From contig JAFVCL010000015.1 of NCBI GenBank assembly GCA_017479285.1, positions 1 to 61,849 on the forward strand: 61,849 bases of DNA, in the 5' to 3' direction. Below, piece after piece: positions 16,524 to 21,889 of this stretch (position 1 is the first letter of the stretch; every line of letters begins with the position of its first letter). The notes beneath the pieces are model-generated. The model did not search any database and was not told the origin of the DNA. It worked only from the letters and a program-made list of their open reading frames with translations. The position numbers and the translations under genes are program-made. The stretch is from Lachnospiraceae bacterium (GTDB taxonomy: Bacteria > Bacillota > Clostridia > Lachnospirales > Lachnospiraceae).

Positions 16524-18467
16524 ATGTACAGAACAAACAAAACAAAATCTATGATAAAGAAAACAATAGCCGGTCTTACCTGCATAACCTCTGCCGGAGT
16601 TCTTTGCTTAAGCTCCGTAAGAGCCTTTGCAGAAGAGACAGTATCAGCACAAACTCAGGTCTATGATGCGCCCGGCAGCTTTGGTGGTGAACTTGGTGTA
16701 AACAATAATGGATTTGGCGGTAATATAAGAGATTTCTTCGGCGGAGACTTTGGCAGTAACTCCGGAAATGTTACTCTCGCAGACGAGCCCACCGATATCG
16801 CAGTGAGCACGGTGACTAATACAGCATCACTGCTTGTTGCTGATGAAGCTAACGCAACCACCTACGTTATGACCGAGGATAATAACGACATAAAAATCGA
16901 CTCCGCAGGTACATATATAGTTACCGGTACCTGTTCAAACGGAAATATCACAGTAAAGAAAGGTACAACAGGTGTTGTTCTTATATTAAAAGACCTTGAT
17001 CTTACCAGCACCACAGGAGCTACGGTTTCTCTTAACAAAAACTCAGAGGTAAAGCTGGTTATCGAGGGGACAGTAAAACTAACAGATGCAGAAGACCCTG
17101 CCGACGAGGAATCCGAGGATACAGAGATCGCGGACGCCTTTGACGGAGCAGCCATAAAGGCAAAGGATGGCTCCAATGTGTATCTTACAGGCAGCGGAAC
17201 TCTTACGATCGACGCTTCGTCCTGCAAAAACGGAATAAAGGTTGGAGATGCGGATACCCCTTCATTCGTCGTTGACGGTTCTCTTACTATCAATATAAAT
17301 GCGGCAAACGATGCCTTTAACGCGGGATATGATCTTACAATATTAAGCGGGACAATAAATATCTCAGCAGGAGATGACGCGATCCACGCAGACCGTATAC
17401 TAACCATTGGTTCCTCCACCGGATCCGGACCCTCAATAATTGTCAGTTCCTGTGAGGAGGGCTTTGAGGGAACCGTTGTAAATCTCTTCGGCGGAAACGG
17501 TACGGTTAAATCCTCAGATGACGGAGTAAATGCTGCAAACAGCGACGGAACCTACAGCGATGAACTTGATTTCTCGATAAATATTACCGGCGGAACATGG
17601 GTGATCAATGCCGGAGGAGACGGATTAGATTCTAATGGGAATGTGAACATTACCGGTGGCAATATAACCATTACGAGCGGCAGTGTCGGTGGAGAAGCCG
17701 GTATCGATTATGACGGTTCATGCTATATATCGGGAGATGCAACAGTCGTTAACAACAGTGGGATCAGCGGTCCGGATGGCGCGGCGGAAATGCCCGGAGA
17801 CGGAGTTTCATTTCCGGGCGGTGGTAATTTCTCTGGAGATGGGTTATCCTTCCCCGGTGACGAGAGCCACTCCGAAGACAATGTCGCGAGTGACAGTGAC
17901 AATTCCTCTTCCGAAAATGAAAATACAAACACTGACTCAGGAGCCGTAAGTTTCGGCTGGGGTACGGGGGATTCTTCCTCCTACTGGTATGAAAATGGCG
18001 TCCGTCAGGGTACCGAATCTGATGATAAGTGTTTTTCGTATGCCGGAACTCTCAGAGGCAGGGAAATCTATGACCCCGAATCTGACGGATGGTATTGGTT
18101 GGATGTAAACGCCGACGGAGCAAAAGCAGTCGGAAAAGAAGTATTCATGCCTTACATATACCAAGACGAAGCAAATTGGAGTGATGAAGAAATCGAGACA
18201 AATTCTATGACATCAGACAGCGGTCTTGAGGAATATGTAGCCGAATGTATAAAAAACGGCACAGGAAAATGGGTGCGCTATGACGAAAACGGTTCGATGC
18301 TCAAGGGTTGGGTGACAATCGAAGGCACTCTTGCAGAGCTTTATCCCTTACAGGCAGGAAACACATATTACTATGACACAAAAACCGGTCTGATGGCAAA
18401 AGGAGCCCTGACCATTGATGGCGAAGATCACTACTTCGATGTGATTACCGGAGTTATGATATACTAA
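16524..18467 (+). CDS. Secreted Cthe_2159-like carbohydrate-binding protein with C-terminal wall-binding-like module
   Basis: 647 residues, signal peptide about 1-37. Residues about 110-410 are a beta-helix of Cthe_2159/DUF4353 type (EDNNDIKIDSAGTYIVTGTC, GNITVKKGTTGVVLILKDLDL, ADRILTIG, NVNITGGNITI), a family known to bind cellulose and pectin. A Gly/Ser/Asp linker leads to a C-terminal module beginning YWYENGVRQG, with GREIYDPESDGWYWLD, GKWVRYDENGSMLKGW and YYYDTKTGLMAKGA, like glucan- or choline-binding repeats. The same module is N-terminal in the proteins at 32679 and 34471. The gene shares a regulatory box with the 9788 gene. Its last 14 nt overlap the convergent gene. Confidence 0.88.
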   Translation: MYRTNKTKSMIKKTIAGLTCITSAGVLCLSSVRAFAEETVSAQTQVYDAPGSFGGELGVNNNGFGGNIRDFFGGDFGSNSGNVTLADEPTDIAVSTVTNTASLLVADEANATTYVMTEDNNDIKIDSAGTYIVTGTCSNGNITVKKGTTGVVLILKDLDLTSTTGATVSLNKNSEVKLVIEGTVKLTDAEDPADEESEDTEIADAFDGAAIKAKDGSNVYLTGSGTLTIDASSCKNGIKVGDADTPSFVVDGSLTININAANDAFNAGYDLTILSGTINISAGDDAIHADRILTIGSSTGSGPSIIVSSCEEGFEGTVVNLFGGNGTVKSSDDGVNAANSDGTYSDELDFSINITGGTWVINAGGDGLDSNGNVNITGGNITITSGSVGGEAGIDYDGSCYISGDATVVNNSGISGPDGAAEMPGDGVSFPGGGNFSGDGLSFPGDESHSEDNVASDSDNSSSENENTNTDSGAVSFGWGTGDSSSYWYENGVRQGTESDDKCFSYAGTLRGREIYDPESDGWYWLDVNADGAKAVGKEVFMPYIYQDEANWSDEEIETNSMTSDSGLEEYVAECIKNGTGKWVRYDENGSMLKGWVTIEGTLAELYPLQAGNTYYYDTKTGLMAKGALTIDGEDHYFDVITGVMIY

Positions 18468-18903
18468 AAACCCTCCCTAAAACCGCGTCGGCTTCCTCTT
18501 CCGAGAGAGTGGCCCTCCCGTCGAAAATAAGGATATTACCGTTTTCCCCGGGTATCTCCTTCGGGTCAATGATCCCACGCAAAAAGACCTGTGCAATATG
18601 ATTTACACAAGTCCTGCAATCGTAGAGATCCTTTAGCGCAGACGCGGATGAAATATCAGGGATGTCCGAAATACCAAGGACATTCCTGATATATTCATGT
18701 ATAAGCCGGGCAGCGATTCTTCTCTCCACCGGATTATCCATCTCCGTAAGATCAATGCTTTCCGCCCAGCCCTCACTTACAGCCCTGCGCACATACTCAC
18801 CATCGGTTATCTCCCCGAAAAGCTTCTCCCCCTCGTAAGCATTTCTTTCCAGATATAATCTTTTTATAAAATCTCCAAAAAGGATATTGCTCACACTTTT
18901 CAC
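18454..18903 (-). CDS. Conserved hypothetical protein
   Basis: 149 residues, soluble, acidic, predicted mostly helical. I do not recognise the family. It overlaps the 3' end of the upstream GTPase-NYN gene by 4 nt (ATGA), so it is translationally coupled to it, and its 3' end overlaps the convergent surface gene by 14 nt. A possible metal or redox pair is present in YDCRTCVN near residue 95. The coupling suggests a role linked to the GTPase fusion, but nothing in the sequence shows what that is. Confidence 0.75.
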   Translation of the reverse strand: MKSVSNILFGDFIKRLYLERNAYEGEKLFGEITDGEYVRRAVSEGWAESIDLTEMDNPVERRIAARLIHEYIRNVLGISDIPDISSASALKDLYDCRTCVNHIAQVFLRGIIDPKEIPGENGNILIFDGRATLSEEEADAVLGRVFSIS

Positions 18904-21761
18904 TTTCCCGCGTTAAAAGACGACTCCAGCTTATGTACCGGGATAGTATTTCCCAAACTGTTTTTCCGGTCTAAATAATCATCCCTCAGTTTTTTCCTCG
19001 CCCGGTCTATCTCTGCTTCAAATTCCGCGGCGGACATACGAAGCGCCCCCTCTCCCCATACGATGAGCTGTTCTATATGGTCGGAGGTGGCAACGGTTAC
19101 ACGGTAATCCTTTGCCTTTTTCTTTGTTGCCTGCTCGATGTACTGGTCTGCGGTCTCCGCCTCTTTTGTATAGACAACATAAATATTCTTTTGCTTTGTA
19201 ACAGAACCTATACCGCCGGGTACGAGGTAGGCATCAAAGACGAGTATCAGCTCTCCCCCGACTATGCCCTGATACTCACTGCATATATCTATAAGCCGTT
19301 CCCTGGCTCCATGGATATTGTCTTCCGTAAGGGGTTTTAACTCGCTCCATGCGTGGATCATATTGTATCCGTCAACCAAAAGACAATCCGGGAGGGGTCT
19401 GGATTTTTTTACGGAGCCATAACCGTTGGTTATTTCATTGTTTGATCCTTTTTCATCCCCAGCAGCACTTCGCGATGTCCTGTCCGGATTCTCGCCGGAA
19501 ATGCCCGTATTTTTCCATGCCTCGCTCCCTTTCCCTCTTTTATATATCTTCCGCCTTGATACGGCATCCTCTTTTCGGTTTCTGTGCTGGGAAGAAAATA
19601 TCGCGTCTATCTCTTCGAGAGAAATATATTTCTCCTCATGGCTTCCGGTCTGGGAATCTCTGTGGGAGGATGCCCGTGACCTCCCCTCTTCGCCTGTATT
19701 GTATACGCCCTTTTCTCCCTCCTGTCCATCGGCGCTTACGGTTTCCCCATAACCGCCGGTTATTATGCCGGCAACATTCATGCCGCTTATTCCCAGCTTC
19801 TCCAATGCTTTTTTATCAAGCGGACAGGGCATATGCGCGTATCCCGCCACCTCGTCCCAGGGCACCTGAAATCCCGCCCCATGTGCACAGAACACCGAGC
19901 CTGTCGGTCTTCTCATATCCTCCTCGGGTTCATATCCGCGCTCCGAAACAACCTTTTCCTGTTCAAAGCAGGGTTCATATCCCGAGAGCTCACAGATAAG
20001 GCTGCCTTCGCCTGCCGTGTACGCCGCAACCTCCCTCGAATACTCCCAGAATGTCGATACCGGAGCGGTTCCCTTCAGGACGGCAGTATTCCCTTCCCCG
20101 GTAAGCTCAGGCGGCAGTGCCTTCCCGTGCATCCTGTCTATATCCGTCATTGCCCTGCCGATAAAGGTACTCGGCAATGTAAGGGTAAAGCGGTAGACAG
20201 GCTCTAACAGTATCGCGTTTCCGTTTTCCCTGGCGTAACGGAGAGCATTTCTTAAAGCCCTGTATGTAGCCTGTCTGAAATCTCCGCCCTCTGTGTGCTT
20301 CGGGTGGGCGCGGCCTGTGATAAGGATGACCTTTATATCCGTAGTCTCGCTTCCGGTAAGTGTCCCGGGATGGATTGTTTCCAGGACATGCGTCTCTATA
20401 AGTCTCTGCCAGTTCTTGTCCAGTATGTCCGTACTGCAGGCAGACACAAATTCTACACCGCTCCCCCTCTCTCCGGGCTCGATCAGTAGCTGAACCTCCG
20501 CATAATGGCGCAAAGGCTCAAAATGTCCTATCCCGTATGCCGGTGCAGCAACAGTCTCCTTGTATACTATGCTTCCCGCTCCAAAGCCTATTTCCACTCC
20601 GAGTCTTTCAAGAACGATTCCCTTTAAGACCTGAAGCTGTATCTCCCCGTTTACATTGACAAATATCTCCTTGTGCCTGTCGTTCCATACAAAGGAAAGC
20701 TCGGGGTATTCCTCCATAAGGGGAGTAAGCTTTCCGTAGAGAAGAAGCTCGTTCTCTCCGGGGGGCAGCTCGATTTTATATCTTAATACCGGCTCAAGCA
20801 CCGGATAATATTTTTCCTTTTCGGTGCCGATCCCCTGGCCGGAGCTTGTCAGGGAAAGCCCCGTTACGGCAACGATCTGTCCCGCAACCGCCTCGGCGGC
20901 TGTCTCAAATTTTTCTCCGTTGTAAAGCCTTATCTGGTCGATCTTTTCCCCGTCCGACTCCTCTACGGGCATACGGGGAGTTATTTTTCCGAAGGTGATC
21001 TTTAGATGGGTCAGTCTCTCTCCGGATGGGGACCTGGTTATCTTAAAGACCCGTGCCCCGTACCGGGTATCCGCCGAAGCGTAGTCCGGCTCGGGAGCAT
21101 ACTTTGATATGCCCTCAAGCAGCTGCATTACACCCTCACCCTTAAGAGCCGAACCAAACCATACGGGAAACGAGAGCCTTCCCTCGATAGCCGACCTGAT
21201 ACTGTCGGCGGAAAGCGAGCCGGACTCAAGGTACTCCTCCATAAGCTTCTCGTCCGACATGGCAATCTCTTCAAGGGCGTCAGGTCCATCCCCCTCCATA
21301 TCCACACAGCCTTTAGACAGAGCTTCCCTTATCTCCTTCATAAGCCCAGCCCGGTCCGCTCCCTGCATATCCATCTTGTTTACGAAGATAACCGTTGGCA
21401 CTTCATAATGCTCCAAAAGTCTCCAGAGGGTTCTTGTATGGCTCTGTACTCCCTCGGGACCGCTGATTATAAGTATGCCAAGATCAATGACGGAAAGGAC
21501 TCTCTCCATCTCCGAGGAAAAATCCACATGTCCCGGTGTATCGAGGAGTGTGACATCCAGGTCACCATACTTAAATCTTGCCTGCTTTGAGAAAATGGTG
21601 ATGCCGCGGCTTCTCTCCATCTCATAATTGTCAAGGTAGGTATCTTTGTGATCCACCCGTCCGATGGTTCTTATCGTTCCCGTTGTATATAAAATATTTT
21701 CCGCAAGTGTGGTCTTCCCCGCATCCACATGTGCAAGAAGACCAATATTAAGGTTTCTCAT
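18900..21761 (-). CDS. Tet(M)/EF-G-like translational GTPase fused to a Rae1/YacP-like NYN nuclease domain
   Basis: 953 residues. Residues 1 to about 640 are a ribosomal-protection-type translational GTPase: G1 AHVDAGKTT, RGITIFSK, G3 DTPGHVDF, G4 NKMD, then domains II-V. A hydrophilic linker (about 650-790) follows. Residues about 792-935 are a NYN/PIN-like domain matching YacP/Rae1: LLVDGYNMIHAW, LILVFDAYLVPGG, KEAETADQYIE, VATSDHIEQ and GEGALRMSA, with the four acidic residues expected to bind metal. Rae1 of B. subtilis cleaves mRNA in the ribosomal A site. The fusion implies a ribosome-directed factor that displaces a ligand and/or cuts mRNA. Start at ATG 21761, where homology begins; there is no clear ribosome binding site, and TATACT lies 6 nt upstream. 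Confidence 0.9.
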   Translation of the reverse strand: MRNLNIGLLAHVDAGKTTLAENILYTTGTIRTIGRVDHKDTYLDNYEMERSRGITIFSKQARFKYGDLDVTLLDTPGHVDFSSEMERVLSVIDLGILIISGPEGVQSHTRTLWRLLEHYEVPTVIFVNKMDMQGADRAGLMKEIREALSKGCVDMEGDGPDALEEIAMSDEKLMEEYLESGSLSADSIRSAIEGRLSFPVWFGSALKGEGVMQLLEGISKYAPEPDYASADTRYGARVFKITRSPSGERLTHLKITFGKITPRMPVEESDGEKIDQIRLYNGEKFETAAEAVAGQIVAVTGLSLTSSGQGIGTEKEKYYPVLEPVLRYKIELPPGENELLLYGKLTPLMEEYPELSFVWNDRHKEIFVNVNGEIQLQVLKGIVLERLGVEIGFGAGSIVYKETVAAPAYGIGHFEPLRHYAEVQLLIEPGERGSGVEFVSACSTDILDKNWQRLIETHVLETIHPGTLTGSETTDIKVILITGRAHPKHTEGGDFRQATYRALRNALRYARENGNAILLEPVYRFTLTLPSTFIGRAMTDIDRMHGKALPPELTGEGNTAVLKGTAPVSTFWEYSREVAAYTAGEGSLICELSGYEPCFEQEKVVSERGYEPEEDMRRPTGSVFCAHGAGFQVPWDEVAGYAHMPCPLDKKALEKLGISGMNVAGIITGGYGETVSADGQEGEKGVYNTGEEGRSRASSHRDSQTGSHEEKYISLEEIDAIFSSQHRNRKEDAVSRRKIYKRGKGSEAWKNTGISGENPDRTSRSAAGDEKGSNNEITNGYGSVKKSRPLPDCLLVDGYNMIHAWSELKPLTEDNIHGARERLIDICSEYQGIVGGELILVFDAYLVPGGIGSVTKQKNIYVVYTKEAETADQYIEQATKKKAKDYRVTVATSDHIEQLIVWGEGALRMSAAEFEAEIDRARKKLRDDYLDRKNSLGNTIPVHKLESSFNAGK

Positions 21762-21889
21762 ATAAACAGTATAACAAATGTTTATGTAATAAAAAAATTT
21801 TTTTGCAACATTTTTGTTTTTCTTTCGTCTTATACAGCAGAGACGGTTAATTCGCTTACATAAGCGCACATTCAAAGAGGAGAATAATT

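Follow-up and report, generated by a model that had tools for sequence, protein, structure and literature searches.

A Rae1-type NYN nuclease fused to an EF-G-like GTPase: a probable replacement of free rae1 in Lachnospiraceae and relatives

YacP-like NYN domains attached to Tet proteins were described by Atkinson 2015 in ten Clostridiales species, with RNase-based resistance as the suggested role (PMC4342817). On the nuclease side, Rae1 (YacP) of Bacillus subtilis has been described as an enzyme that acts on mRNA and depends on translation; its gene adjoins yacO (rlmB), with which it is co-transcribed, and an efp mutant is suppressed when either Rae1 or YacO/RlmB is lost (PMC6613710). On the GTPase side, domain IV of Tet(M) reaches the ribosomal A site (PMC7456112). 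Here we consider a Lachnospiraceae contig of 61,849 nucleotides (assembly GCA_017479285.1, contig JAFVCL010000015.1; hereafter the window), in which one open reading frame (ORF) joins a GTPase of the EF-G/Tet type to a NYN domain of the Rae1/YacP type. The architecture is already known (PMC4342817), and a literature search, beyond the reach of which lay the main Rae1 papers, listed no further paper on the fusion. The apparent replacement of the free rae1 gene, the class of the GTPase loop, a conserved linker element and the tests of the origin of the fusion seem to be new here. Because free rae1 is absent where the fusion is found, the best-supported reading is that the fusion has probably replaced stand-alone rae1 in these bacteria.

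One frame for a GTPase and a nuclease

The fusion is encoded by a 953-residue frame without internal stop, which runs on the minus strand from an ATG at 21761 to 18900. A TTG upstream of this ATG would extend the protein to 991 residues; relatives begin at the ATG. Residues 1-645 constitute the EF-G/Tet-type GTPase, and the parts are the following:

18900..21761, minus strand: fusion coding sequence, 953 residues, translational GTPase, linker and NYN_YacP domain
21093..21761, minus strand: G domain, residues 1-223, with AHVDAGKTT, RGIT, DTPGH, NKMD and SAL (Pfam GTP_EFTU)
19962..21053, minus strand: EF-G domains II-V, residues 237-600, with the domain IV tips GHFEPLRHYAEV and KHTEGGDFR
19827..19961, minus strand: C-terminal extension of the GTPase, residues 601-645, SVFCAHGAGFQVPW...H
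19392..19826, minus strand: linker, residues 646-790
19557..19628, minus strand: conserved linker element, residues 712-735
18954..19382, minus strand: NYN_YacP (Rae1-type) nuclease domain, residues 794-936, with Asp797, Asp843, Asp872 and Asp894

Pfam assigns GTP_EFTU to residues 2-223 (177.5 bits), EFG_IV to 398-510 and EFG_C to 518-600, the latter two above the Pfam cut-off, with EF-G_D2 and EFG_III under theirs. NYN_YacP (PF05991) is matched at 794-936 with 154.7 bits against a gathering score of 24.6, and this part aligns to the B. subtilis YacP chains 5MQ8/5MQ9 with an E-value of 7e-27. We thus confirm the observation made in an earlier note on this DNA, namely that a complete GTPase and a NYN domain with four acidic residues share a single frame. 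This frame is also conserved. Of 589 loci from named genomes the best 80 were kept, a choice that favours likeness over the full length; 79 of these read through both domains, three having stops confined to the final 2% of the matched range, and the other, L250, is interrupted at codon 464 (of 801). A break in the linker, which the earlier note had named as a danger to its reading, was not found in these loci, and a frame break or assembly join is thereby ruled out.

The four acidic residues of the NYN domain are catalytic. None of the four (D797, D843, D872 and D894) varies across 79 aligned fusions (our own and 78 others, L245 and L250 being omitted from the 80 loci) or across 32 stand-alone domains, so that the other danger named, their substitution across homologues, did not materialise either. 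In the same 79 fusions the GTPase motif stretches are invariant or at least 90% conserved at most positions, and 34 full-length fusions keep, bar single positions, the P-loop, RGIT, DTPGH, NKxD, SAL and both domain IV tips. Some fused proteins depart from the class patterns, among them L326 (G439:C12), in its domain IV tips and C-terminal extension. The spacing between His643 and Asp797 ranges from 71 to 176 residues over the 79 rows (median 91, 154 in our protein), and within it lies the element with consensus E-L/I-x-x-I-F-x-R-T-Y/F-G, of which E717 is present in 76 and I721 in 77 of the 79; its R-T-Y-G part is altered in our protein, and the element is weakened in the genus to which our protein belongs. 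Both the GTPase and the NYN half are under purifying selection: in the closest pair, L069/L070, the single close pair with unsaturated silent sites, the ratio of non-synonymous to synonymous change (dN/dS, omega) is 0.062 for the GTPase, 0.141 for the linker and 0.048 for the NYN domain, and other pairs agree where the ratio is computable.

Distribution, the rlmB site and origin

Genomes were sorted by the length of the open frame at the NYN_YacP match, a frame of at least 700 residues counting as fused in a sample of the family (120 genomes from 119 genera). A match is present in 108 of these, i.e. 96 fused, nine stand-alone and three contig-cut or split, and absent from 12. The suggestion that stand-alone rae1 might be missing where the fusion exists is borne out, in that no second intact NYN_YacP was seen in our own genome or in the fused genomes of the family and phylum samples. 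A single match is found in 94 of the 96 fused family genomes, G039 and G076 showing an extra fragment at a contig end. The phylum sample (398 genomes of at least 90% completeness, our own genome added) contains 28 fused genomes from 12 families by group code, with frames of 857-995 residues; all 28 have a single match, and 187 of the other 370 have one above the cut-off. The naive probability of meeting no second copy in 28 genomes is 3e-9, kinship being ignored. The fusion is the sole NYN_YacP match of our own genome (2.67 Mb in 102 contigs, 87.5% complete).

The 12 family genomes devoid of NYN_YacP are also without a GTPase match at an E-value of 1e-40, and an unfused GTPase with the KHTEGGDF tip occurs in five of the nine stand-alone genomes, the copy in G099 ending early at 525 residues (0/12 versus 5/9; Fisher's exact p ~0.006, calculated by hand). 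By record title, the hosts of the fusion comprise Lachnospiraceae, Butyrivibrio, Ruminococcus flavefaciens FD-1, Anaerovorax odorimutans, Intestinimonas butyriciproducens and Fusibacter sp. 3D3; the named loci nearest to ours are Lachnospiraceae metagenome-assembled genomes (70-72%). No neighbouring gene family is common to more than five of 20 diverse fused loci.

The place from which the free gene would have disappeared can be pointed out. In four stand-alone genomes of the family (L146, L148, L149 and L150), within which this ancestral order was examined, rae1 lies behind cysS-mrnC-rlmB; the gene after it is sigH in L148 and L150, and a single ORF separates it from sigH in L146. CysS, RlmB and SigH were identified by NCBIfam; the remaining neighbour is presumably MrnC. 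We located rlmB in 24 genomes, 20 of them fused, and inspected 1.5 kb on each side: a tblastn search (E-value 1e-3) found no Rae1 within this distance in any of the 20 fused genomes, our own included, 19 of which are readable past rlmB (L177 stops at that gene). In 13 of the 20 rlmB is directly followed by sigH, after a gap of 5 nucleotides in our own genome (L168), and in four (L179 and L181-L183) cysS and/or mrnC are out of place too.

In a tree of 86 NYN rows (54 fused, of which two derive from cut or split genes, and 32 alone) the fused/alone label needs two changes, versus a mean of 26 when labels are shuffled. A single fused clade was not rejected in the approximately unbiased test on 82 rows, from which four long fused rows had been dropped (p 0.754), and the constrained tree beat the free one. 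In a GTPase tree of 50 rows all 28 fused rows lie within one starred clade of 30, its remaining members being the split gene L153 and the unfused copy of the Ligilactobacillus salivarius plasmid pMP118. L153 (from G042) carries GTPase and NYN in two overlapping frames, be it by a natural split or by a frameshift in a draft genome. Both trees come from quick searches, and a single gain with later transfer and loss would account for them without being proven.

Proposed role and competing explanations

Our preferred explanation, which we hold to be about as likely as not, is that the protein is these bacteria's Rae1, fused once to an EF-G-like GTPase, in which the GTPase clears the A site and the nuclease then cuts. 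As domain IV and Rae1 are both assigned to the A site, a hand-off (GTPase out, nuclease in) is the economical way to accommodate the two, and A-site cleavage by the fusion would follow by analogy with B. subtilis Rae1. That GTP gates the hand-off is possible and somewhat doubtful; in the same tentative spirit we propose a GTP-gated no-go decay factor, a single polypeptide that would detect and clear a blocked A site and then destroy the mRNA, and that would be the chief Rae1 pathway in Lachnospiraceae and relatives. On this view an EF-G-like GTPase would have acquired Rae1 at its C-terminus, most simply in a single event, and the free rae1 behind rlmB would then have been lost. The GTP form would dock at the factor site of a stalled ribosome, where domain IV would probe or clear the A site; upon GTP hydrolysis the GTPase would release, and the tethered NYN domain could enter the emptied A site and cut the mRNA, the cut message passing to decay and the ribosome to rescue. 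The gating, the order of these steps and the stalled ribosome as substrate are what we infer. Lachnospiraceae are among the main bacteria of gut and rumen, and should the fusion be the Rae1 of this family, the access of the nuclease to stalled ribosomes, and with it the role of many EF-G-like GTPases, would become testable.

Several observations weigh against this proposal. Domain IV and Rae1 would compete for the A site, which they could use in turn and not together on one ribosome; the earlier idea that the fusion places the nuclease at the decoding centre is therefore tenable for sequential use of that site and not for simultaneous occupation. The fusion protein is dispensable, given that 21 of 31 genomes of the genus lack a NYN_YacP match (seven of ten among the more complete ones) and ten have one, although G135, counted among the 21, holds a contig-cut GTPase of 66% identity and may be fused. 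Another genome of this genus, G122, has only a Tet-type GTPase (31% identity) with a PVSTPADF loop. Six phylum genomes (G477, G349, G528, G373, G483 and G455) carry an unfused GTPase of the clade, with stand-alone Rae1 in four; as this is near the background of 187/370, such GTPases are not clearly paired with Rae1. Stand-alone Rae1 proteins conserve Arg908, Glu913 and Leu914 at 97-100%, against 71%, 48% and 58% in the fusions; our protein has Phe in place of the last of these. Finally, rae1 is also missing at rlmB in G130, G004 and G116, which have neither gene, and in G059, which has a stand-alone Rae1 elsewhere. An empty rlmB site seen in non-fused genomes is by itself no proof that the fusion caused the loss, and rae1 may possibly have been lost before the fusion or apart from it.

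The alternative that survives best, and which we nevertheless regard as unlikely, is that the halves act independently, the fusion merely tying their expression or stoichiometry, or the linker being cut in the cell. The length and variability of the linker between its fixed points (71-176 residues) would suit it, as would the pMP118 GTPase, which lacks a NYN domain (45% identity) and falls in the fused clade, and the separate overlapping ORFs of G042, one genome of the family. Against it stand the 79 of 80 best loci that are open through both domains, the conserved linker element, the label that changes just two to three times on the trees, and the free Rae1 that was not seen in fused genomes, neither in the phylum sample nor at the rlmB loci.

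Slightly less probable still is a tetracycline-type ribosome protection protein whose drug resistance the NYN domain would supplement with an RNase step, as suggested by Atkinson 2015. The top NCBIfam model is indeed tet_protect (NF012153), with 409.4 bits, and a fused copy of Agathobacter rectalis is annotated as belonging to the TetM/TetW/TetO/TetS family. However, the scores lie far under the curated cut-offs of 775 for this model and 900 for Otr(A) (NF000120, 318.4 bits), and NF033148 gives 274.9 against 1100. The domain IV tips and the C-terminal extension are likewise unlike Tet(O): where Tet(O) has YYSPVSTPADF our fusion has AHPKHTEGGDF, and the Ser-Pro-Val of the drug-site tip in loop III of Tet(M)/(O) is not present (PKHTEGGDF versus SPVSTPADF; for Pro509 in loop III of Tet(M) see PMC7456112). 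The loop III pattern is matched by four of the six unfused phylum members of the GTPase clade. Four full-length unfused relatives (L141-L144, of 650 residues) have both domain IV tips and share the extension SVFC..G....V.W....H, which is missing from two more remote GTPases aligned with them. The letters of the loop alone do not exclude protection, since Tet(M) can stay active with S508A or with S508A P509A V510A (PMC4750697), and a table in PMC7725328 credits two of four tested genes nearest to otr(A) with an effect in E. coli. What the earlier note had called a ribosomal-protection GTPase therefore holds for its EF-G/Tet-type layout and not for the protection class, and 'Tet(M)-like' in the strict sense is not upheld.

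The genomic setting points in the same direction, in that the fusion is found in most sampled genera of the family and in varied gene contexts, unlike an acquired resistance gene. Among 928 matched plasmid records one (Agathobacter) covers 80% of the protein, with Monoglobus second and fused on inspection; both replicons are large and typed as non-mobilizable. The Agathobacter rectalis copy resides on a 252-kb plasmid (NZ_CP143948.1, L336) and is annotated as tetracycline resistance, as is the unfused relative on L. salivarius pMP118 (NC_007930.1, L338), and the fused Monoglobus copy (NZ_OY725736.1, L337) is annotated as a translation factor GTPase. Surveys of resistomes may thus count fused genes, at least one deposited fused copy being named after tetracycline resistance.

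Least probable, and by a good distance improbable, is a role of the NYN domain in maturing or degrading rRNA or tRNA, the GTPase then serving as a checkpoint of assembly or recycling: a proposal that the domain matures rRNA and tRNA is cited in PMC4342817, while B. subtilis Rae1 is described as translation-dependent and mRNA-acting. The former neighbours RlmB and, as we take it, MrnC act on rRNA, which would favour such a role; EF-G-type GTPases act on 70S ribosomes, which would not. Carriage by phages was rejected, as the matches in 51 viral-contig loci all leave the NYN part uncovered, and so was a known defence system, for which PADLOC gave just LeoA (E-value 0.0028). Two phage records marked UNVERIFIED, MT835514.1 (L339) and MT835563.1 (L340), hold full-length or near full-length fusions; the former looks bacterial by eye, with genes for FeoB, GltX, RsmH and glycerol kinase.

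Start signal, downstream gene and known systems

Two features flank the fusion gene:

21768..21773, minus strand: TATACT, -10-like, ending 6 nucleotides ahead of the ATG, putative leaderless start
18454..18903, minus strand: P0002, 149-residue ORF overlapping the stop of the fusion by 4 nucleotides, judged incidental

A Shine-Dalgarno run is absent ahead of the ATG, and we consider the start of the fusion to be putatively leaderless in our genus. Such a hexamer stands at this spot in six of ten copies from the genus, which are related (the positives comprise about four different upstream sequences), against a mean of 0.6 in shuffled sequences, none of 5000 of which reached six. The window has 40 ORFs that start with ATG and reach 200 residues, and of these the fusion alone carries it. 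The putative leaderless start in the genus is that of our own gene and of L069, L070, L073, L075 and L076, and in L078, where the script had misplaced the start, the hexamer lies by eye 7 nucleotides ahead of the ATG. Outside the genus it occurs in two of 56 loci with a readable ATG (two loci above 70% identity being set aside), which rules out a leaderless start as a general feature. If real, an mRNA that is often leaderless in this genus could let the factor be made when ordinary initiation fails. By eye, L069, L070 and L075 have a terminator-like hairpin and T run that reach to about 11 bases before the ATG of the fusion, possibly an attenuator or an upstream terminator.

The 149-residue gene that the earlier note had taken as coupled to the fusion goes elsewhere with another gene. 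Homologues of P0002 are present in 24 of 59 genomes searched, our own included. Loci were fetched for 19 of the 23 matching relatives: the fusion is not within 1.5 kb of the gene in any of them, and every one has the homologue directly behind a homologue of one and the same gene (53-100% identity), which Pfam identifies in L041 as Melibiase_2, i.e. an alpha-galactosidase. This leads us to reject P0002 as a fusion partner and to regard its coupling here as most likely a local rearrangement. Our own genome has its alpha-galactosidase copy on another contig, with no P0002-like gene in the stretch fetched there. P0002 is matched by no model of Pfam, NCBIfam, PADLOC or PHROGs, and the idea, formed by eye, of a worn S-layer-homology repeat found no support in Pfam; the family (18454-18903 and L041-L059) shares a conserved core DLYDCRxCVNHIAQVYLRGIM. 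Of the earlier interpretation as a whole, the fusion, its catalytic residues and the lack of a free Rae1 have stood, and the strict likeness to Tet(M) and the coupled gene have not.

Set beside the known systems, our protein agrees with the Tet-NYN fusions of Atkinson 2015 in joining a Tet/EF-G-type GTPase and a YacP NYN domain in one chain; the difference lies in the ten species and RNase-based resistance given there. With Tet(M)/Tet(O) it shares the EF-G-like layout and the G motifs, being ~31% identical to Tet(O) copies, and it differs in the domain IV tip, the C-terminal extension and the curated score, as well as in its nuclease, which those proteins lack. The unfused GTPases of its clade (L141-L144 and LSL_RS10690 of L. 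salivarius pMP118) come nearer, with ~40-45% identity and the same C-terminal extension, after which they stop without a NYN domain, the pMP118 copy failing the tip patterns. B. subtilis Rae1/YacP (5MQ8, 5MQ9), finally, belongs to the same domain family and has all four acidic residues, but it stands alone beside rlmB (yacO), whereas the domain described here is fused and located elsewhere.

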